Shown here piece after piece: positions 2,894 through 39,846 of a stretch of DNA of 45,515 nt. The notes under the pieces were generated by a model. It ran no database searches. It had not been told where the DNA came from and saw only the letters and a program-made list of their open reading frames with translations. The position numbers and the translations under genes are program-made. This stretch comes from Desulfuromonadales bacterium (GTDB lineage Bacteria; Desulfobacterota; Desulfuromonadia; Desulfuromonadales; UBA2197), in assembly GCA_014859605.1 (NCBI GenBank), contig JACUTW010000012.1, forward strand, positions 1 to 45,515, given 5' to 3'. The stretch's first letter is position 1, and every line of letters starts with the position of its first letter.

Positions 2894-3547
2894 ATGGACG
2901 ACAAACTGCGCCGCGCTATACCATTTGAGGAATTCGACTATCAGTCCCTGCTCGACTCGTTGCGGGGATATGCTCATCCTCGCAAGAAGATCACCACGCT
3001 ACTGCGCAAAGGGGAGATCATTCGAGTCAAGAAGGGACTTTATCTCTTCGGCGAAGGGTATCGCCGTTCGCCATACTGCCGTGAACTTTTAGCCAACCTC
3101 ATCTACGGTCCCTCCTGTATCTCCCTCGAATACGCTCTGCATTATCATGGTCTGACGCCGGAACGGGTCGAAAGCATCACTTCTGTGGCCTGCGGTCGCT
3201 CGCGTACTTTTGTCACGCCGGTCGGTCGTTTCTGTTACCGGATGATCCCTGTGGCTGCGTTCAGTATTGGTATTGATCGCATCGAATTGGCGGATGGCCG
3301 CGCTTTTTTAATGGCTATTCCAGAGAAAGCATTGGCTGATCGGGTCATGGCCGAGCGCGGTCACGCTTTATCGACGCAACGTGCATTGACGATCTTCCTG
3401 CGTGACAATCTGCGCGTTGATGGCGAGCTGCTGAGAACGATGGATGCCGCCATCCTCCTGGCTCTCGCTAGCGCCTATGGTTCGCGGCGTTTGAAGGTGC
3501 TGGCGAATCTCATTCTCTCGCTGCAAACGGAGAAACGTGATGCATGA
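2894..3547 (+). CDS. abiEi: AbiEi-like antitoxin of a type IV toxin-antitoxin system
   Basis: The 217-residue protein starts MDDKLRRAIPFEEFDYQSLL. Its N-terminal winged-helix segment (about 15-60: LLDSLRGYAHPRKKITTLLR, then KGLYLFGEGY) ends in the phrase 'kkGlYlf', typical of AbiEi family antitoxins. The following part (LLANLIYGPSCISLEYALHY, HGLTPERV) matches the conserved 'G.sYiS.esAL.yHGL.pe' block. AbiEi proteins bind DNA to repress their operon and counter the AbiEii nucleotidyltransferase without forming a tight complex (type IV). The stop overlaps the toxin start by eight bases, so the genes are translationally linked. An inverted repeat upstream may be its operator. Confidence 0.85.
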   Translation: MDDKLRRAIPFEEFDYQSLLDSLRGYAHPRKKITTLLRKGEIIRVKKGLYLFGEGYRRSPYCRELLANLIYGPSCISLEYALHYHGLTPERVESITSVACGRSRTFVTPVGRFCYRMIPVAAFSIGIDRIELADGRAFLMAIPEKALADRVMAERGHALSTQRALTIFLRDNLRVDGELLRTMDAAILLALASAYGSRRLKVLANLILSLQTEKRDA

Positions 3548-4424
3548 CGCTATCGAGCGAATGCTTGTCAAATATCAGGCAAAGAGTGTCGACGACACGG
3601 TGCGGGCACTGCGTGAAATTTTACAGGAGATCGCCCTGTTGGGGTTATGGCGCGCTCGCTTCTTCGAGCATGGGGCTTTCTATGGAGGCACGGCACTGCG
3701 TATCCTTCATGGAATTGATCGCTTTTCCGAAGACCTTGATTTCTCTTTACTGCAACCGAATCCGGAATTTTCCCTTGAGCGCTACAGTAAATCACTGGAG
3801 GAGGAGCTGCGGGCGTTCGGCTTTAATTTGCGAGTTGAACGCATCAACAAAGCCGTGGAGAGTGCTGTCCAGTCGGCCTTTCTCAAAGCCAACACCCGCA
3901 ACGAATTGTTGGTGATCGAGACCGATGCCCGACTGGTTCGAGATGTCCCGCCCGGTCAGCTCTTGAAGATTAAAATCGAGGTGGATACCGATCCTCCCCC
4001 TGGCTTTGCGACCACCACTCGTTATCTGTTGCAACCAATCCCTTTTGCCGTTCGCTGCTATACGTTGCCCAGTCTCTTTGCCGGAAAGATGCATGCGCTC
4101 CTTTTTCGCAAGTGGAGCAATCGGGTCAAAGGGCGCGATTGGTATGATCTGGTCTGGTTCGCGGCGCATCACCCCCAGCTGAATCTGCGGCATCTCGAAG
4201 CACGGATGCGGCAGACCGGGCACTGGATCGGGGACCTCCCCTTAACGCGCCGGGAGTTTGAAGCGCTGTTGGCTGTGGCTATCGATCAGCTCAATATCGA
4301 GCAGGCGCGCCAGGACGTCGCTCCCTTTGTGAAAGATCCGCAGATGATTGCCATTTGGTCACGGGATTTTTTTCGGGATGTCGCCGCCAGGATCGTGATC
4401 GTCGAAGAAGGCGATTCCGAATAG
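3540..4424 (+). CDS. abiEii: AbiEii/AbiGii-family nucleotidyltransferase toxin
   Basis: The 294-residue protein has the nucleotidyltransferase signature FYGGTALRILHGIDRFSEDL followed by DFSL. It contains the GG-TAL substrate loop and the DxD metal-binding pair (EDLDF) that define AbiEii toxins. Later it has LPSLFAGKMHALLFRKWSNR and KGRDWYDLVWFA, matching the 'K..Al..R...KgRD.yDl.wf' block of the family. The start is the ATG at 3540, inside the antitoxin gene. AbiEii enzymes block growth, by nucleotide transfer to tRNA in studied relatives, and some give abortive phage resistance. All catalytic motifs are present, so it is likely functional. A small hairpin follows the stop, without a T-run. 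Confidence 0.88.
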   Translation: MHDAIERMLVKYQAKSVDDTVRALREILQEIALLGLWRARFFEHGAFYGGTALRILHGIDRFSEDLDFSLLQPNPEFSLERYSKSLEEELRAFGFNLRVERINKAVESAVQSAFLKANTRNELLVIETDARLVRDVPPGQLLKIKIEVDTDPPPGFATTTRYLLQPIPFAVRCYTLPSLFAGKMHALLFRKWSNRVKGRDWYDLVWFAAHHPQLNLRHLEARMRQTGHWIGDLPLTRREFEALLAVAIDQLNIEQARQDVAPFVKDPQMIAIWSRDFFRDVAARIVIVEEGDSE

Positions 4425-22852: not shown

Positions 22853-23974
22853 TCACGCCATCGTCCCGATGGTTTTGCGGAAGCGAGCCAGCGCCAGGGC
22901 AAAAAGGGCCGTTCCAATCAGGACAATGGCGAGGAACTGCGGCCAGACCGCCGTGATGCCCGCGCCCCGGTACAGGATCGACTGAGCCAACATCACAAAA
23001 TGCGTGTTGGGCGCGGCGAGCATGATGTACTGGACGACCTCCGGCATGCTCTCGCGCGGCGTCGAACCACCGGAGAGCATTTGCAACGGTAGCAGCACCA
23101 GCAACAGCAACAGGGCGAACTGCGGCATGGAGCGGGCGACGGTGCCGAGGAAAATGCCCATCGAGGTGGTCGCGAACAGATGCAGCGCCGTGCCGGCCAG
23201 AAACAGCGCGAGCGAGCCCTGGATCGGCACGGAAAGCCAGCCCTGCACGACGACGGTGAGTGCCGTGGCGGTGGCGGCAAGGACGACCAGTCCCATCGCC
23301 CACACCTTGCTCGTCATGATCTCGAATGGCGTGACCGGCATGACCAGCAAATGCTCGACCGTGCCGTGCTCGCGCTCGCGGATCAGCGCCGCGCCGGTCA
23401 GCACGATGGAGAGCATGGTCACGTTGTTGATGACCTGCATGACGGCGCCAAACCATGACTTGTTGAGCTGGGGATTGAAGCGCACGCGCAGCGCCAGATC
23501 GACCGGCAGCGCCGGCACCTCGCGATAACGCTGCACGAAAGTGCGCACCTCGTCGCTCACGATAGTCTGGATATAACCACTGCCGGTGAACGCTTGGCTC
23601 ATCCGTGTGGCGTCCACATTGAGTTGGATCGTGGGTTGGCGCCCGGCGAGCAGATCGCGCTGGAAGTTCGGCGGAATATTCAGGGCGAAGGTGTCGAGGC
23701 CGGCATCCATGCGGGCGTCCATCTCGGCCTGGTCGATCACCTCGGGGAGAACAAAGTACGGCGGGTAAAAGGCGCTGACGATGCGCCATGACAGCGGCGA
23801 GCGATCCTCGTTGACGACCGCGATCGGTGCCTTGTTGAGGGTCTCCGGCATGGCCGTGGCCGCCGTGTAGACCGAAACGGTAAAGGCGTAGACGATCAGC
23901 ACCAGCATGATCGGGTCGCGCACCAGGCTGCGCAACTCCTTGATGCCGAGATGAAGGACGTTGGCCGGGCGCAT
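22853..23974 (-). CDS. yhhJ: ABC-2 type export permease, YhhJ-like
   Basis: The 373-residue protein has an N-terminal membrane helix (about 22-40: LVLIVYAFTVSVYTAATAMP) and a large extracytoplasmic loop (about 45-170). The loop begins ETLNKAPIAVVNEDRSPLSW. Five or more membrane helices follow to the C-terminus, with EREHGTVEHLLVMPVTPFEI in a cytosolic loop, the ABC2_membrane_3 layout. It is the last gene of the yhiI-rbbA-yhhJ set and starts three bases after the rbbA stop. It likely forms a heteromeric pore with the membrane domain of RbbA. The substrate is unknown; the E. coli counterparts are annotated as an export system. High GC composition fits the islet. Confidence 0.88.
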   Translation of the reverse strand: MRPANVLHLGIKELRSLVRDPIMLVLIVYAFTVSVYTAATAMPETLNKAPIAVVNEDRSPLSWRIVSAFYPPYFVLPEVIDQAEMDARMDAGLDTFALNIPPNFQRDLLAGRQPTIQLNVDATRMSQAFTGSGYIQTIVSDEVRTFVQRYREVPALPVDLALRVRFNPQLNKSWFGAVMQVINNVTMLSIVLTGAALIREREHGTVEHLLVMPVTPFEIMTSKVWAMGLVVLAATATALTVVVQGWLSVPIQGSLALFLAGTALHLFATTSMGIFLGTVARSMPQFALLLLLVLLPLQMLSGGSTPRESMPEVVQYIMLAAPNTHFVMLAQSILYRGAGITAVWPQFLAIVLIGTALFALALARFRKTIGTMA

Positions 23975-23977
23975 GGA

Positions 23978-26770
23978 CTAGCGCTCCTGCTTCTTGAGCA
24001 GCGCGGCGGCGAGCGCGATCAGGATCGGCACGGACAGCGCCAGCGGGACGAAGGCCGCCTGCAGGTCGGAGAAGTCGAGCGCCTTCGTGAAGGTGCCGCG
24101 TGCAATAGTCAGGAAATGGGTGGTCGGGTAGAGCTGGCCGATCAGCCGGCCCGCTCCTTCCAGCGATGAGACTGGATCGATCATGCCGGAGAAGTTGACC
24201 GCCGGCAGGATGGTGAGCACCGCCGTGCCGAAGATCGCCGCGATCTGGCTGCGCATGAAGGTGGAAATCAGCAGCCCCACGGCCGTGGCGGCGCCGACAT
24301 AGAGCAGAGCGCCCGCCGCCAAGGTCAGGAAGCTGCCCTTCAGCGGCACGCCGAAGACGGTCACCGCGAGCAGCGTGAGCAGCAGGAAGCTCAGGAAGGA
24401 CAGCACGACATAGGGCAACTGCTTGCCGAGCAGGAATTCGAGCCGCGTCGTTGGCGTGACGTAGAAGTTGGTAATCGAGCCGAGTTCCTTTTCCCGCACG
24501 ACGCTGAGCGCCGCGAGCATGGCCGGGATCAGCATGAGCAGCAGCGGGATCACCGCCGGCACCATGGCGACCAGGCTCTTGACGTCCGGGTTATAGCGGA
24601 ACCGGGTCTCGATATTGACGAGCCCCGCCAAAGCCCCGCCGTGGCCGGCCTCGCGCGCCCTGGTGGCCAGCCAATGGGCATGCATACCCTGCACATAGCC
24701 GCGGACGGTCTCCCCCCGTGTCGGCATGGCGCCGTCGATCCAGGCGCCGATCTCGACCCGCCGGCCCCGGGCGATGTCGCGCGCGAAGCCCGGCGGGATC
24801 TCGATCGCCAGACTGATGTCGCCTTCGCGCATGCGCCGGTCGAGATCGGCATAACCGGTAATCGGCGCCCGCTCGACGAAGTAACGGGAGCCGGCGAGGT
24901 TGAGCGTATAGTCGCGGCTGACGGTGGTCTGGTCGCGATCCAGCACCGCGAAGGTGAGATCCTCCACATCGAGGCTGATCCCATAGCCCATCACGAACAT
25001 CAGGATGGCGCTGCCGAGCAGCGCCAACGTCAGCCGGATGGGATCGCGGCGCAGCTCCAACCCTTCGCGCCGGGCATAGCTGATCATGCGTCGGGGGTCG
25101 AATCGGCGCCGCCAGCCCTGTGGTTCGGCATGACCGGGCGAGGCCTCGACCGAAGCGAGCGAAGTGCTTGCGTTCACTTGGCGTGCCTCGCCCGCGCCCT
25201 CCGCTTCGGCCTCCTCCAGATAGGTGACAAAAGCCTCTTCCAGGCTGCCCTCGCCGCGTTTGCTTGCCAGGGCGGCGGGCGCGTCAGTCACTAGCACCCG
25301 ACCCGCATGCATCAGCGATATCCGGTCGCAGCGCTCGGCCTCGTTCATGAAGTGGGTGGAGATGAAGATGGTCACCCCATCGCGGCGCGACAGCTCGACC
25401 AGCATGCGCCAGAAGGCGTCGCGCGCCACCGGATCGACACCCGAGGTGGGCTCGTCGAGGATCAGCATCTCGGGCTTGTGGATCATGGCGACCGCCAGCG
25501 ACAGGCGTTGCCGGTGGCCGAGGGGCAGGCGGCCCGGCAAGCTGTCAATCACCGCGGCCAGATCGAATCGCTCAACCATTTCGTCCACGCGCCCTGAAAT
25601 CTCGGCAGCGGGCACGTGAAACAGTCGGGCATGCAGCGCCAGGTTCTGCCGCACCGTCAGTTCGGTGTAGAGCGAGAAGAACTGCGACATGTAGCCGACG
25701 CGGTGGCGGGTCGCAAGGTCGTGCGGGTCCACCTCGTGTCCGAACAGCCAGGCCCGGCCTTCGCTCGGCGGCAGGAGGCCGGTCAGCATCTTCATCGTCG
25801 TGGTCTTGCCACAGCCGTTGGAGCCGAGAAAACCGAAGATCTCACCCCGTGGGACACGCAGGTTCACATGATCGACCGCGGTGAACTCGCCGAAGCGCAT
25901 GGTCAGATCCCGGGCCTCGATCGCGGTATCGCCATCGTCTTGCGGCCGCGGCGGAATCTCGACCGCCCGATAATCCCGGCGCTTGTCTTCCGGCAGCAGC
26001 CGGATGAAGGCCGCCTCCAGCGAAGCCGCCCCCGTGCTCTGCAGCAGGCCTTCGGGCGTGTCGCTGGCCAGCACTCGCCCACCGTCCATCGCCGCCAGCC
26101 AGTCGAAACGTGCCGCCTCCTCCATATAGGCCGTGGCCACCAGCACGCTCATGCCTGGCCGGGAACGACGGATGCCGGCGATCAACTCCCAGAACTGGCG
26201 CCGTGAGAGCGGGTCGACGCCGGTCGTCGGCTCGTCGAGGATGAGCAGGTCCGGATCGTGGATCAGCGCGCAGCAAAGGCCGAGCTTCTGCTTCATGCCG
26301 CCGGAGAGCTTGCCTGCCGGGCGAGCGAGAAACGGCCTAAGGCCGGTGGCCTCGGTCAGGGCCTCGATGCGGCGCGTCCGTTCGCCACGATCCTGCCCGA
26401 ACAGCCGTCCGAAAAAGTCGAGGTTCTCGGCCACCGAGAGCGTCGGATAGAGGTTTCCTCCCAGGCCCTGGGGCATGTAGGCGATCCGCGGGCCGAGTGC
26501 GCGCCGATAGCGCGCATCGGCCATGTCGCCGCCCAGCACCTCGACCCGGCCCGTCTGAACCGCGCGGGCGCCCGCGATCAGCGCCAGCAGACTTGACTTG
26601 CCGACCCCGTCCGGGCCGATCAGCCCGGCCATGCAGCCCGCAGGGAGATCGAGGCTGACCTCGTCGAGCGCACGCACCTTGCCGTAGCGCAGGGACACAT
26701 CCCGCAGGCGGGCAACCGGCGCGGCAGCCCCCCCTCCATCCTCGATCTGTGCATGTACATCCCGGCTCAT
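23978..26770 (-). CDS. rbbA: RbbA-like fused ABC ATPase-ATPase-permease
   Basis: The 930-residue protein has two ABC ATPase domains followed by an ABC-2 membrane domain, the layout of E. coli RbbA (YhiH). Domain 1 (about 20-260) has Walker [10 protein letters not shown], signature [11 protein letters not shown] and Walker [14 protein letters not shown]. Domain 2 (about 285-520) has Walker [10 protein letters not shown], a degenerate signature [11 protein letters not shown] and Walker [14 protein letters not shown]. The C-terminal part (about 565-930) has a first helix at [20 protein letters not shown], a long outer loop and several helices with [21 protein letters not shown]. coli RbbA is reported as ribosome-associated, yet the fused permease and neighbours point to export. 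It overlaps yhiI by four bases. Confidence 0.92.
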
Positions 26771-27840
26771 TGCGGCAGCCTCGTCTGCAGTTCCGGCGGC
26801 CAGTCCACCGTGGAATCAAATCGCACATAGGCCATGCCCGGCAGGCCGGTCTTGACCTGACGCAGATGCCGGCGCAGCAGCGCCGGATCGATCCGCGCCT
26901 TGACCCGGAACATCAGCTTCAGACGTTCTTCCGTTGTCTCCACCGTTTTCGGGGTGAACTGGGCCTCATCGGCGACGAATGAGATCTCGGCCGGGACCAC
27001 GTATTGCGGGGCGGCATCGAGCACGAGCCGCGCTTCGGTCCCCAGTGCGACCCGTCCGGCCGCTTTCGTCGGCAGGAAAAAGGTCATGTAGACATCGGTG
27101 AGGTCGATCATGTTCAGGACAGTGCCGCCGGAGGCCAGCACCTCGCCAGGCTGGGCCACACGGTATTGCACCCGTCCTTCCCGCGGCGACTTCAGCACGC
27201 TGTCGTCGAGGTCCGCCTCGATCCGCTCCAGGGCAGCCTGGGCTGCCTCGACATCCGATTCCGCTCCGATCACCTGCGATCTGGCCGTAACGATGGCCGC
27301 GTCGGCCGCCACTACTTCGGCCTCGGCCGCGCGGAAAGCGGCCCGCGCGCTAAGGAAGGCGGTGCGGTCATCGTCGACTTGCTGCGCGGCAATGGCCTGA
27401 TCCGTGAGCAGCGCTTCTGAACGCGCCAGGCGCCTTTTCGCCGCCTCGACCTCGGCCTGGTGCTGTACCACAACGGCCTGTCCGGCAGCTCTTTCGCTTT
27501 GACGCTGGGTCACCTGGCTGCGGGCGGTCTCGATGGCGTTCTGCGCTTGGCGCAACCGGGCCCGCGCTTCTCTCCGCTGAGCTTCAAGTACGGCGGTGTC
27601 CATCTTCGCCAGAACTTGTCCGGCCGTGACGAAATCACCTTCGTCCACCAGGATCTCCTCGATCCGCCCCGCCGTCTTGGCGGCGATGTCGATCTCCACC
27701 GCTTCAATGCGGCCGTTGCCACTGGCGAAACCGTCGGGAAGATCCTTTTTCTGCAAGGATTGCCAAGCAAAGAGTGCGGCCCCGATACCGACCACCCCTA
27801 TGGCGATGGCCAGTAACTGGCCTTTATTGAGCTTCGGCAT
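26767..27840 (-). CDS. yhiI: HlyD-family membrane fusion protein, YhiI-like
   Basis: The 357-residue periplasmic adaptor has one N-terminal membrane anchor (about 8-27: [20 protein letters not shown]). It then has a lipoyl/biotinyl half ([20 protein letters not shown]) and a long alpha-helical hairpin (about 85-210) rich in Ala, Gln and Arg. The second lipoyl half and a beta-barrel ([20 protein letters not shown]) close the fold. Such proteins bridge an inner-membrane exporter to an outer-membrane channel; no TolC-like gene is present here. It is the first gene of the operon and overlaps rbbA by four bases (ATGA). The ATG at 27840 has GGAG nine bases upstream and is chosen over the GTG at 27855. 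Confidence 0.92.
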
Positions 27841-27874
27841 TTTTTGACACTCCACTTTGCCCCGTACTCTGAAA

Positions 27875-36084: not shown

Positions 36085-36846
36085 TTAAAAAGCTGCGTGG
36101 CGGAAATCACCATCTTCGTAAATGACATAAGAGGCTTGCTCCATAGCGTCACCGAGGGCGATCACTAGCCCTCCGTTCATCTTTTCGATGAAAGGGAGGT
36201 GAAAATGACCGGTGATAACGATTTCGCAGCCCGCGTTAAAACGTTGCTGGGCATGGGCCATGAGCAGCGGTCGCGGGTCACGGGCGGGACGATGGTGCCG
36301 TTTGGCTTTGCTCCGCGCACTTAAAAAGCGTGAAAAACGCCAAAGGCGGTCAGGGGAGACAAAGAGGTCGACGAGTTTACCGACAAAGCGGCTGCGTAAA
36401 AGGGCACGGTAGAGTCGATAACCGGTATCCTGGCGATTGATCAAGTCACCGTGACACAGGAAAATCTTTTTGCCGTCGAGGGTGATGATCGCCTCTTCCG
36501 GGTAGATCGTCGCCTGCAGTGTGTCGCGGACAAAGGGGCCGAGATGAAAATCGTGATTGCCTTCGATCCAGACGATTTTGGTGCCGCTTTCGTGCAAGCG
36601 GCGCAGGGCTTCGAGGATCGGCACATAGGGGGAGAAGACGACGTGCTCGTAGCCGACCCAGAATTCAAAGATATCACCGAGGAGATACAGGGTGCGGATC
36701 TGCCCCTCTTCACGCTGAAATAGTGTCAGGAGACGGCGATAGTTGTCGTCTTTTGGATTTATGAGGTGCGCATCGGCAAGAAAAAGGTCTTTCATGGCCG
36801 GCACTATAGGGTTTTGCACTTTTTTCGTCAAGATCGCAGCTGACAT
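36085..36846 (-). CDS. lpxH: UDP-2,3-diacylglucosamine diphosphatase-like metallophosphoesterase
   Basis: LpxH hydrolyses UDP-2,3-diacylglucosamine to lipid X and UMP in lipid A synthesis. The product has the calcineurin-like motifs in order: LFLADAHL (D-x-H), LLGDIFEFW (GDxxE), WIEGNHDFHLG (GNHD), IFLCHGDLIN and ITGHFHLP. It also has the LpxH-like helical cap region between (RLYRALLRSRFVGKLVDLFV). An ATG at 36846 has AAGG six bases upstream; an ATG at 36795 (MKDLFLADAHL) would give a 236-residue form closer to typical LpxH, so the exact start is open. The gene converges on the yihY-like gene. Assignment to LpxH rather than another phosphoesterase is likely but not certain. Confidence 0.78.
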   Translation of the reverse strand: MSAAILTKKVQNPIVPAMKDLFLADAHLINPKDDNYRRLLTLFQREEGQIRTLYLLGDIFEFWVGYEHVVFSPYVPILEALRRLHESGTKIVWIEGNHDFHLGPFVRDTLQATIYPEEAIITLDGKKIFLCHGDLINRQDTGYRLYRALLRSRFVGKLVDLFVSPDRLWRFSRFLSARSKAKRHHRPARDPRPLLMAHAQQRFNAGCEIVITGHFHLPFIEKMNGGLVIALGDAMEQASYVIYEDGDFRHAAF

Positions 36847-36905
36847 GATCAACCTTCGTATCTGTTTCTTTTGAGGAACAGTGTCGCCCCGATGTTGTGA
36901 CCAGA

Positions 36906-36942
36906 AAAAATGCCCGACAATTCACAATTGCCGGGCATTTTT
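36906..36942. terminator. Bidirectional terminator hairpin
   Basis: AAAAATGCCCG (36906-36916) pairs with CGGGCATTTTT (36932-36942), with an inner CAATT/AATTG stem. It lies just beyond the stop of the reverse-strand ABC ATPase gene (36962) and probably ends that operon before the lpxH-like gene. Confidence 0.9.
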
Positions 36943-36961: not shown

Positions 36962-37636
36962 TCAGGCGGCTATCAGCCCGTCTTTGACGCGGATAATCCG
37001 TTCGGCCCGCTTGGCAACTTCGTCACTGTGGGTGACGATGACCACGGTTTTGCCCTGACGATGCAATGCCTGCAGGAGGTTGAGAATTTCTGCTTCAGCG
37101 ACGGAGTCGAGGTTGCCGGTCGGTTCATCGAGGAGGAGGATGTCGGGATCATTGGCCAACGCCCGGGCAATCGCCACGCGCTGCTGCTGGCCGCCGGAGA
37201 GTTGTCCCGGTTTCGATCCGGCTTTTTCAGCCAGACCGACCAGTGCCAGTAACTTTTCGGCGCGCTCTCTTTGTTCCGGCTCGGCTACGCCGGCCAGCAT
37301 CATCGCAATCTCGATATTTTCACGAGCGGTCAAACCCTGCAGCAGATTGAAAAACTGAAAGACAAAGCCGATGCGTTGGCCGCGCAAGCGGGCCAGGTCG
37401 CTGTTGACGATGGTACTGATCTCTGTGTCGCCGATGTAGATTTTGCCGCTGCTCGGGCGATCAAGTCCGCCGATGAGATGCATGAGGGTGCTTTTACCGT
37501 GCCCGGAGGGGCCGACAATGCAGGTGAACGAGCCTTGGAGGATCTCCAGAGAGACGTCCTTGAGGGCGCTGGTGGTGATTTCTCCGACCGTATAAGTTTT
37601 AGCCGCATGTTCGGTGCGGATGATAGGGTTATTCAT
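36962..37636 (-). CDS. LolD/MacB-type ABC transporter ATPase
   Basis: The 224-residue ATPase has Walker [10 protein letters not shown] (about 41-49), the Q-loop, signature [15 protein letters not shown], Walker [13 protein letters not shown] and the H-loop histidine in [15 protein letters not shown] after Walker B is typical of the LolD/MacB/FtsE subfamily, which power mechanotransmission rather than classical transport. The ATG at 37636 overlaps the permease stop by eight bases and is preferred to the upstream GTG-type starts, which would extend into the permease gene. It works with the FtsX-type permease upstream. Substrate is not identifiable. Confidence 0.92.
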
Positions 37637-38792
37637 AGCTGATCGCCTCCACCGGAGTGAGTCGCGCTGCTTTCCAGGCCGGGTAGAGACCGGCGATGAT
37701 GGCGACAAGGGCTGAAAAGAAGATGGAGCTGATGATAATGTTTAGATCGAGTAGCGAGCCGCTTCCCGAGCCTTTAACCAGCGTCGTGAAGGCATTCTGG
37801 CTGATGTACGGGGTGGCAAGGGTGGCGGTTGCCAGGCCGAAGATGACACCGGTGAGGCCGCCGATGAGGCCGTAAAATCCGGATTCGAGCATGAAGAGGG
37901 TGAAGATCGTCCGCCGCCTTGCGCCGAGGGCCTGAAGGATGCCGATTTCCCGCTTCCGCTCATAGGTGGCCGCCATCATCGTATTGACGATGCCGAAGGC
38001 GGCAGCGATAACCGCTACCGCAGCAATCATCTGCAGAGTGATGTTGACGGTGCCGACAATGCTGAGGACCGATTGGAGCATCTGCTTGTCAGAGACCACC
38101 CCCAGGCCGGTTGCGACCCGGATCTCTTCGATGTAGCGTTCGGTCTCGGCCAGATTCTCAACACGGATGGCAGCGTAAGAGACATTGTCGGCGGCGTTGA
38201 AGAGGCGCTGTGCCAAGGGGAGGGGGAGAAAAATGGTGGCATCATCACGGCCGCCGGTTTCGCCAAGGATGCCGAGGATCGGTAATATTTCGCCGCGGAT
38301 GGTGACACTTCCGCCGGGTTTGAGTTCGAACTGGCGGGCCGCGGCCGATCCGAGCATGACGCCATTTTCATCCGGAGACTGGAAGTAGCGTCCCGCGCTG
38401 ATCTCCCAGCGTTTAAAGTCCAGAGTGGCCGCCGGTTCAATGCCGCTGACCGTGACCGGCTTGTTATTGATGGCGCTTTGCTGGGCGAGGAAGGGGACGA
38501 CCGTCACCCCTTTGATGGCGCGGATACTGGTAACCTCAGCTGCGGAGATGTTGGTCGGCATCTGATCGCCGGTGAGAATCGACAGTTGCTCATAGCCGCA
38601 GGAGCCCTTGGGGATGACGACAAGGTTGGCGCCGAGAGCGGCGGTTTCCCGATAGATCTCCTTCTTCAGGCTCCCCCCCATCGACATAAAGGTGACAAAA
38701 GAGGCGATACCGATGGTGATGCCGAGGAGGGTAAAGACAAATCGTCCGCGGCGACGGGTGATATTCTTGAAAACCAGTTTCGTGAGGGTCAT
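37629..38792 (-). CDS. FtsX/MacB-type ABC transporter permease
   Basis: The 387-residue protein has the MacB-like topology. One helix lies near the N-terminus (about 18-40: FTLLGITIGIASFVTFMSMG). A periplasmic MacB_PCD domain (about 45-250) follows, then three C-terminal helices in the FtsX domain (MIAAVAVIAAAFGIVNTMMA, FYGLIGGLTGVIFGLATATL, IIISSIFFSALVAIIAGLYP). The last loop [17 protein letters not shown] is the usual FtsX C-terminus. Partners are the downstream ATPase and the upstream OB-fold protein, whose stop abuts this ATG with no gap. A single periplasmic cysteine (CGYEQL, about 65) is notable next to a Cys-rich secreted neighbour. Confidence 0.92.
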   Translation of the reverse strand: MTLTKLVFKNITRRRGRFVFTLLGITIGIASFVTFMSMGGSLKKEIYRETAALGANLVVIPKGSCGYEQLSILTGDQMPTNISAAEVTSIRAIKGVTVVPFLAQQSAINNKPVTVSGIEPAATLDFKRWEISAGRYFQSPDENGVMLGSAAARQFELKPGGSVTIRGEILPILGILGETGGRDDATIFLPLPLAQRLFNAADNVSYAAIRVENLAETERYIEEIRVATGLGVVSDKQMLQSVLSIVGTVNITLQMIAAVAVIAAAFGIVNTMMAATYERKREIGILQALGARRRTIFTLFMLESGFYGLIGGLTGVIFGLATATLATPYISQNAFTTLVKGSGSGSLLDLNIIISSIFFSALVAIIAGLYPAWKAARLTPVEAISYE

Positions 38793-39179
38793 TTATCCCC
38801 CAATCTGGTGGTTGCGCAACACTTTGATCTTCTCGGCGGTAAAGACCGCCCCTTGTGGCACCTTGCTGAAGCTGCCGGTGACCCGGACTTCATCGCCGAC
38901 TTTGGGCATGGCCCCCTGGTAGCGGACCGGAACATAAAGTTTGTTGCAGTTGGCGGTCGTGCACTGGAGTTCCTTGATATCGTAGATGCCGAAGATGCTC
39001 GGGTCACTATTGGAGACCCCGGCCATGATTCCGGTGACGGTAATGGTGCCGCTGTAGGCGAGAGGGTCGGCGCCGACTTGGTTGACGTGGAGAATGTCGC
39101 TATCGCCTTGGGAGGTGATGACAATTGCTAATGCGATGCCGACAAAGAGGGCCGCAATGATAAATATTTTCTGTTTCAA
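38793..39179 (-). CDS. Membrane-anchored OB-fold protein, distantly CcmE-like
   Basis: The 128-residue protein has one N-terminal membrane anchor (about 3-20: QKIFIIAALFVGIALAIVIT). A beta-rich periplasmic domain follows, with the OB-fold pattern GTITVTGIMAG, KLYVPVRYQGAMPKVGDEVR and VTGSFSKVPQGAVFTAEKIK. It resembles CcmE-type OB-fold domains, but the CcmE heme-binding histidine motif is absent. Instead it has a cysteine pair, ELQCTTANCNKL. The TTG at 39179 has AAAGGA eight bases upstream. It is fused in transcription to the permease gene. A role as periplasmic adaptor of the transporter, perhaps metal- or redox-responsive, is an inference. Confidence 0.72.
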   Translation of the reverse strand: MKQKIFIIAALFVGIALAIVITSQGDSDILHVNQVGADPLAYSGTITVTGIMAGVSNSDPSIFGIYDIKELQCTTANCNKLYVPVRYQGAMPKVGDEVRVTGSFSKVPQGAVFTAEKIKVLRNHQIGG

Positions 39180-39229
39180 GGAGCAAATCCTTTTTGAGGT
39201 GGAAGTGACAGGCCAGGCAACATCCTTGC

Positions 39230-39250
39230 GCACAACGGAAAGAGTTGTGC
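39230..39250. repeat. Inverted repeat between Cys-rich and OB-fold genes
   Basis: GCACAAC (39230-39236) pairs with GTTGTGC (39244-39250) around a 7-base loop; flanking CTTG/CAAG extends the pairing across a one-base bulge. It may be an operator or processing hairpin in the reverse-strand operon. Confidence 0.4.
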
Positions 39251-39298
39251 AAGAAGTGCTGGACGCAGAGACGTTAACGAAAATAGGTGCTGGTCTTG

Positions 39299-39628
39299 TC
39301 AGGCCGGCTCGGGGGGGTAGTCGATCGCGGGTTGGTGGCCGGGGGGGAAGGTGGTCAGTGGGGCTGGGGGTTGAAGCCGCATTTCAAGGGAGGGATTCAG
39401 TAGCAGGAGGCGATAAGAGATGTCAAGCCCCTGGCAGTTAGAGCAATGACAGTCCTGGTTGCAGTCGGGGAGGTCAAAGGGCGTTTCACCACTCTTTTTT
39501 TCGTGCGGACAGCAGGGCGCAGTCGTCTCCATGCTCAGCAGGGCCGATGCCGTCTGAGCAATGCCGGTCAGGGTGGAGAGGGCCAGCAGGAGGAGTATGC
39601 AGGTGATAATACGCCATAGGGAGTTCAC
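39299..39628 (-). CDS. Secreted cysteine-rich protein, hypothetical
   Basis: The 109-residue protein has a signal peptide (SLWRIITCILLLLALSTLTG, then IAQTASA with likely cleavage near residue 29). Its short mature part contains two cysteine clusters: TTAPCCPHEKK and CNQDCHCSNCQG. The tail is proline-rich (QPPAPLTTFPPGHQPAIDYP). Clustered Cys with His suggests metal binding, as seen in small secreted proteins near metal-efflux genes, but no known family was recognised. The start is a GTG at 39628. It lies 119 bases upstream of the OB-fold gene, with an inverted repeat between, so co-transcription is possible but not certain. Confidence 0.6.
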   Translation of the reverse strand: MNSLWRIITCILLLLALSTLTGIAQTASALLSMETTAPCCPHEKKSGETPFDLPDCNQDCHCSNCQGLDISYRLLLLNPSLEMRLQPPAPLTTFPPGHQPAIDYPPEPA

Positions 39629-39722
39629 CCCGATAAAATACAGAAATCACCGTAGATCTGTCAATGGCCAGAGCTGATTATCTCGATCAATCACAAAGAG
39701 GAGGTTGTTTTTTACACGAAAA

Positions 39723-39759: not shown

Positions 39760-39846
39760 TGGTGCCGAAGGCGAGACTCGAACTCGCACGAGCAATTGCC
39801 CGCCACCCCCTCAAGATGGTGTGTCTACCAATTCCACCACTTCGGC
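39760..39846 (-). tRNA. tRNA-Leu (GAG)
   Basis: On the reverse strand the 87-base gene begins GCCGAAGTGGTGGAATTGGT and ends GCCTTCGGCACCA, with CCA encoded. The anticodon stem is CCATC/GGTGG with loop TTGAGGG, giving anticodon GAG. The long variable arm (GCGGGCAATTGCTCGT region) is typical of class II leucine tRNAs. The T arm GCGAG-TTCGAGT-CTCGC is intact. It is followed by a clear terminator. Confidence 0.95.

Follow-up and report, generated by a model that had tools for sequence, protein, structure and literature searches.

Organization of the Locus

The subject of this analysis is a four-gene operon in a 45,515-nucleotide stretch of DNA from a Desulfuromonadales bacterium (contig JACUTW010000012.1 of assembly GCA_014859605.1; the whole stretch is referred to below as the window), which occupies positions 36962–39628 of the minus strand and encodes, in transcription order, a secreted Cys-rich protein (CYS), an OB-fold protein (OB), an ATP-binding cassette (ABC) permease (PERM), and an ABC ATPase (ATP). 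CYS (39299–39628) has a GTG start, a signal-like N-terminus, CC and DCxC/CxxC motifs, and a C-terminal IDYPPE; OB (38793–39179), which is membrane-anchored, has a TTG start with an AAGGA site; PERM (37629–38792) is a Type VII permease with matches to MacB_PCD (6e-24) and FtsX (3e-20); and ATP (36962–37636) is an ATPase of the LolD/MacB type (PF00005, 4e-36), for which we take the ATG at 37636 as the start, the open reading frame (ORF) start listed at 37708 being merely mechanical. All four genes claimed in an earlier note on this DNA are present, including the secreted Cys-rich gene upstream of OB, and the tight packing described there is exact, with the OB TAA followed directly by the PERM ATG and an overlap of 8 bases between PERM and ATP. 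The four genes form a real operon, and their arrangement is not due to chance, because it recurs in every named relative examined.

Upstream of CYS, a sigma-70 promoter on the minus strand (39635–39664) comprises TTGACA at 39664, an 18-nt spacer, and TATTTT ending at 39635 (10 of 12 matches), and stands 6 nt ahead of the start codon. Just beyond the ATPase stop, an unstranded hairpin with A/T runs on both sides (36910–36938), read directly from the letters and absent from the pattern-scan listing, is likely a bidirectional terminator. The operon is flanked by tRNA-Leu (39760–39846), with a terminator-like hairpin (39749–39722), on one side and by a metallophosphoesterase gene (36085–36852) on the other.

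A Type VII Permease with a Proposed OB-Fold Dithiol Partner

Together, PERM and ATP have the composition of the Type VII (MacB/LolC/FtsX) ABC superfamily, namely, an FtsX/MacB_PCD permease with a periplasmic domain and an ABC ATPase. They score below the NCBIfam cut-offs for MacB (966 bits, compared to 68 for the permease and 230 for the ATPase, the model describing a fused protein), LolD (307.75 bits, compared to 221), and LolC/E (362.45 bits, compared to 108.7). The structural model of PERM, based on an alignment of 36 of the 80 loci introduced below, is matched best by the pneumococcal permease 5xu1_M (Z 28.0, root-mean-square deviation (rmsd) 6.7, 356 aligned), followed by LolE, HrtB, and MacB. 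The start of the periplasmic domain carries Cys65, in the motif PKGSC[A/G]YEQ (PKGSCGYEQ in the window). All 19 sequences reached from OB carry this residue, a count that is unbiased by the search pattern, as do 80 of the 80 listed sequences reached from PERM, for which one of the two PERM patterns held that Cys.

The window OB protein matches no Pfam family above the cut-off. The OB fold proposed earlier is nevertheless borne out by an AlphaFold2 model (pLDDT 84, core 92–95; alignment of the window protein with 66 of the 80 loci), with RPA14, Ten1, and YgiW among its PDB matches. The anchor is a transmembrane segment in the window protein and a lipobox in many relatives. The CTTANC pair is real, and forms part of a motif E-x2-C-x4-C of which the Glu and both Cys are invariant in 81 of 81 sequences (the window and the 80 listed loci; some are one residue longer). 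Within the window's own clade, the last strand is followed by a His (RNHxLGG) that is nearly invariant and stands roughly where CcmE carries its heme His. It is lost in most distant relatives and is thus no family-wide site. The earlier statement that OB lacks the heme histidine is in part incorrect. We also considered selenocysteine in OB, and rejected it, as the in-frame TGA at two strong places (G118 and G318) is an ordinary terminal stop.

Distribution of the OB/Permease/ATPase Trio

The distribution of OB is patchy: 24 of the 98 genomes searched in the order carry it (25 of 98 by profile search, one of them weak), as do 21 of 297 sampled from the phylum. In a search by OB within the order, PERM stands beside it at 23 of 24 loci besides the window, the exception being L051. 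A scan of named genomes with the permease segment, with hits picked by the two permease patterns mentioned above, yielded at least 80 loci from many phyla, and OB adjoins PERM at 80 of the 80 listed. The ATPase is also adjacent at these loci, except for six that are ended by the contig end, and at three of them (L109, L110, and L112) OB is placed after the ATPase. Most are metagenome bins, with titles that include Geobacteraceae, Nitrospirae, Nitrospinota, Coriobacteriia, Clostridiales, Methylobacterium, Burkholderia, Dechloromonas, and Omnitrophota, among others, and the trio records span at least Thermodesulfobacteriota, Nitrospirota, Actinomycetota, Pseudomonadota, and Bacillota. None of the open-access papers listed in our literature searches describes this trio.

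Where OB occurs without the permease, it is followed in several cases (L170, L171, L172, L174, L175, L177, and L051) by a membrane protein of ∼150–200 amino acids with a YWLGYSYAL-like motif, which in L171 is read inside a longer ORF; a Pfam scan of three of these proteins gave no match. The stand-alone OB of L170 and L171 lies beside ArsR and an MtrA-like protein.

Metal and Thiol Genes near the Trio

Neighboring genes were taken from mechanical ORFs and assigned with profiles built from the same loci. Among the 47 distant loci (L090–L136), ArsR occurs at 28, TlpA/ResA at 21, P1B ATPases at 15, DsbD-N at 9, MtrA-like proteins at 8, CusA at 6, and CcdA at 5, such that any of nine metal/thiol families is present at 35 of the 47, and a metal regulator or efflux pump (ArsR, P1B, or CusA) at 32. 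The density per kb is higher near the trio than far from it for ArsR (0.091 and 0.013, respectively), TlpA (0.054 and 0.007), and P1B (0.042 and 0.013). All four P1B proteins that were scanned lie above the NCBIfam heavy-metal and cadmium-family cut-offs, and many of the neighboring ArsR proteins carry C-x3-CF and ELCVCD, which we take to be the CadC pattern. Candidate metals are ions of the Cd/Pb/Zn type, to judge from the CadC-like regulators of the relatives, and of the Cu/Ag/Zn/Co type, to judge from CusA. On a Vibrio campbellii plasmid, the gene order is Tn3 transposase, ArsR, OB (annotated "hypothetical protein"), PERM, ATP, TlpA, SMR, SMR, a hypothetical gene, a P-type ATPase, and a thioredoxin-domain protein, while in a Geobacter metagenome-assembled genome (L062) the trio directly follows CusA in the order small Cys protein, TolC, CusB, CusA, OB, PERM, ATP.

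Several P1B-type ATPases by the trio (L108, L114, L124, L125, L129, L131, and L094) have a membrane motif that reads CSC instead of CPC, a feature associated with the label P1B-7. An MtrA-like protein with a DUF4346 domain lies between ArsR and OB in L101, L105, L119, L122, and others. A literature search for antimonite AntA/AntC and P1B-7 as named precedents yielded nothing usable among the papers listed, and the copper cluster of C. glutamicum, promising by its wording, was set aside as a precedent, since its ftsX is located elsewhere.

Sister Cassettes and the Permease Tree

The nearest paralog of PERM in the same genome (30%, 2.6e-38) comes directly after a DUF2318/FtrD-like gene and an HMA protein. 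DUF2318 (PF10080) has no match in OB or CYS; it was found in 39 of 58 relatives, and the single match of the window's own genome lies on another contig. The FtrD/DUF2318 cassette occurs in C. jejuni 81-176 (genes 1651–1654), where it is the closest studied relative that we found, and on Pelobacter plasmid pPRO1. It resembles the window operon in that the gene for a Cys-rich, membrane-anchored periplasmic protein immediately precedes those for a Type VII permease and a LolD-like ATPase, and the two differ in that DUF2318 takes the place of the OB-fold dithiol protein, and that only the permease described here has Cys65, the motif being absent from 14 of 14 DUF2318-linked permeases. In comparison to the iron-linked FtrD cluster, which has two permeases, FTR1, and P19, there is a single permease here and no other transporter gene directly beside it. 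On pPRO1, a heavy-metal P-type ATPase precedes the DUF2318 cassette, and a TolC-family gene comes after it.

A second class of OB protein (C-x4-C, CQSNGCW), DUF4920/BOF-like by subthreshold Pfam matches, forms an OB-lipoprotein/permease/ATPase trio in L182–L190. At 8 of 8 loci it adjoins a permease with PSGCAHE, the Cys of which is at the same place as Cys65, and 8 of the 98 genomes searched in the order contain this permease. As the Cys is present in the permeases of both OB classes and in none of the 14 examined that are linked to DUF2318, the emerging pattern is that an OB dithiol partner accompanies a permease Cys. In a tree that took 27 of the 80 OB loci, the OB and DUF2318 permeases stand together, apart from the MacB, HlyD-linked, and Lol rows, with a support of 50/84 for the OB group; we note that the own-genome row L055 has a very long branch that disturbs this tree. 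In one further operon (L178, 5288–8322, minus strand), genes for an FtrD-like protein, a DUF2318-type permease, an ATPase, and an OB-like protein occur together.

The Leading CYS Gene and Its Promoter

CYS is without an NCBIfam match at E ≤ 10, and no Pfam model reaches its cut-off on this protein. Like CopL-like or CzcI/MerP-like proteins, it is small, Cys-rich, and linked to metal operons, but it differs from these in lacking any NCBIfam match and in ending with IDYPPE. The earlier note had proposed to regard CYS as unrelated should most trios lack it, and here the outcome depends on the scale considered. Across phyla, the trio occurs without CYS at 40 of 76 evaluable named loci, the 36 with CYS directly upstream of OB all lying inside L057–L097, and CYS is thus a lineage-specific accessory. 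Within the order, 22 of 25 strong OB places have CYS immediately upstream (exceptions G062, G026, and G072), and CYS therefore belongs to the operon there. Intact strong copies away from OB were found in only two genomes, one in which CYS is followed by genes for TlpA, CcdA, DsbB, and DsbA (L181, G049), and one in which it is followed by a second-class OB lipoprotein, permease, and ATPase (L182, G033); CYS thus travels with modules of thiol proteins. Our CYS alignment used 32 of the 36 sequences, leaving out L083 (masked bases), L057, L085, and L093.

A near-consensus sigma-70 promoter ends 5–8 nt before the CYS start at 33 of 36 loci, compared to 16 of 942 other genes. In these counts, L057 is scored as a miss although its promoter is visible in direct reading of the upstream region, and the 16 other genes include the CYS of L071 under another label as well as five ArsR genes. 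Because the promoter lies so near the start codon, the CYS transcript should be leaderless. Beyond this promoter, the 23 upstream stretches compared share no inverted repeat, and a shared operator was therefore rejected. Near the trio in L073, L101, L105, L126, and L127, ArsR genes likewise have a promoter 5–7 nt before the start codon, such that leaderless heads may be common in operons of this kind. Leaderless merP, czcI2, copJ, and arsR messages are reported from Cupriavidus metallidurans (PMC7563307).

Functional Interpretation and Alternatives

The context of the relatives makes an assignment to the functional class of thiol/soft-metal stress well supported. Taking all evidence into account, we estimate a probability of about 0.55 that the system is a Type VII ABC machine with an OB-fold dithiol partner, which counters soft-metal or metal–thiol stress on the outer side of the inner membrane. 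The earlier proposal of a distinct Type VII ABC system, with an OB protein in the place of the MacA adaptor and with links to metals and thiols, agrees well with the unbroken linkage at the listed loci and with the neighbors of the distant ones, while the heme link that it also entertained is not supported, as discussed below. According to PMC12646458, Type VII machines generally do mechanical work on the periplasmic side instead of translocating small solutes, and can be sorted by their partner; YbbAP-TesA, as described there, similarly combines one such machine with a dedicated periplasmic-side partner, which is a hydrolase rather than an OB-fold dithiol protein.

The direction, substrate, and acceptor of the machine, and with them extrusion, are as we infer them in the following scheme. 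OB would bind a thiophilic metal ion or metal–thiol adduct via its Cys pair, possibly assisted by the nearby Glu and, in the window clade, by the C-terminal His, and Cys65 of the permease would be the ligand for handover or docking. Powered by ATP, movement of the periplasmic domains could then detach this species from the membrane or from OB, and it would pass to a periplasmic acceptor, which may be CYS or, at loci that have one, a CusCBA-type pump. The thiols would be held reduced by proteins of the TlpA/DsbD type, and CYS may act as a buffer or sensor. A wider proposal, which we put forward tentatively and with less confidence than the reading above, is that the system belongs to an unnamed Type VII branch with thiol-protein partners, in which mechanical work would be done on metal–thiol chemistry and OB would hand a soft metal to the permease Cys; this branch would comprise three sister cassettes (with the present OB, the DUF4920/BOF-like OB, and FtrD/DUF2318), with a leaderless CYS buffer or sensor leading the operon here.

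Several observations weigh against soft-metal or metal–thiol stress as the function. No metal gene was found among the window ORFs beside the operon, so the function is borrowed from the relatives and the Cys motifs, and in the window clade (L057–L089) metal/thiol families lie close by at only 5 of 33 loci. CusA is no denser near the trio than far from it (0.012 and 0.030 per kb, respectively). In the phylum survey, which examined 19 stretches of 26 OB places, OB stands without such a permease at 10 of 19, and it therefore has a role that does not depend on the ABC unit. Finally, the operon contains no outer-membrane exit or adaptor.

An unlikely alternative is a thiol-redox machine, in which the ABC unit would have a small thiol or reducing equivalent as its substrate, or would power the reduction of OB in aid of TlpA/Dsb-type disulfide chemistry, with metals being only one inducer. 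The TlpA, DsbD-N, and CcdA genes near distant loci (21, 9, and 5 of 47, respectively) would fit such a role, as would the position of CYS at the head of the TlpA-CcdA-DsbB-DsbA operon in L181, and the two Cys of C-x4-C could form and break a disulfide in turn. Their spacing differs, however, from the CxxC motif of thioredoxins, partners such as P1B ATPases and CadC-like ArsR regulators are of the metal type, and translocation of a small solute would be at odds with the general mode of Type VII machines given in PMC12646458. In another reading, the unit could aid the import or delivery of a needed metal, in analogy to the Campylobacter FTR1-P19-DUF2318-ABC cluster, which in C. jejuni supports growth on limited iron (PMC6083913), and the nearest PERM paralog in the genome does follow a DUF2318 protein. 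We consider acquisition distinctly unlikely, as neither FTR1 nor P19 was seen on reading the window ORFs (no profile search was made for them), relatives of the trio stand beside P1B ATPases and in a Tn3-borne resistance-like block, and even the DUF2318 cassette of pPRO1 sits between a heavy-metal P-type ATPase and a TolC-family gene.

Still less probable, in our view, is that OB and CYS are mere passengers of an ordinary system for MacB-like efflux of drugs or LolCDE-like release of lipoproteins, despite matches to MacB and LolE at the level of both fold and family. As in MacAB-TolC, the permease has the MacB fold and a MacB_PCD domain, and as in LolCDE, an FtsX-type permease, with LolE among its best structural matches, is served by a separate LolD-like ATPase. 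However, the ATPase here is a separate protein from an overlapping gene, whereas MacB is fused; there is one permease with an OB partner, unlike in LolCDE; and the scores fall below the MacB, LolD, and LolC/E cut-offs. Moreover, no MacA/HlyD adaptor was found among the ORFs beside the operon, and neither OB nor CYS matches HlyD at E ≤ 10, so a MacA-like role of OB by homology was rejected. OB linkage at 80 of 80 listed loci, and the separation of the OB permeases from the MacB, HlyD-linked, and Lol rows of the tree (in which one long-branch row is unresolved), also speak against passengers. The least probable of these explanations is heme handling, with OB as a CcmE-like heme chaperone and an ABC unit that moves heme as in HrtBA. 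CcmE has an OB fold and a membrane anchor, both of which OB shares; the C-terminal His is conserved in the window clade, and the HrtBA permease is among the structures similar to the PERM model (7w7a_J, Z 21.6, rmsd 6.0, 332 aligned). Against this, OB has an invariant Cys pair and a His that most distant members lack, the window protein has no match to CcmE (PF03100) at E ≤ 10, and only 2 of 67 family members match it, weakly (best 0.0034). In addition, 5xu1 and LolE outscore HrtB against the PERM model, and no heme or ccm genes are among the recurrent neighbor clusters listed. CcmE is not among the 50 matches listed in each of the two PDB comparisons of the OB model, which in itself excludes nothing. 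The missing family match and the unconserved His rule out heme handling as the preferred explanation.

A Type VII machine acting on soft-metal or metal–thiol stress would add to this superfamily a partner class that is covered by no Pfam family and is tied to metal/thiol stress genes. It also hints at a possible role for the ABC proteins of the DUF2318 cluster of C. jejuni, which has thioredoxins nearby and the ABC substrates of which are stated to be unknown in PMC6083913. Direct and simple mutants could be made in the two Cys of OB, in Cys65 of the permease, and in the leaderless CYS.

Other Features of the Window

Elsewhere in the window, an AbiEii nucleotidyltransferase toxin gene (3537–4424, plus strand; PF08843, 3e-37) is overlapped upstream by a short gene (2894–3547) without a Pfam match, which we take to be the likely AbiEi antitoxin. 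On the minus strand, positions 22853–27855 encode an HlyD-type protein, a double-ABC/ABC-2 protein, and an ABC-2 permease, and this stretch was likely acquired, since its G + C content is 62–67%, compared to 50–60% elsewhere.

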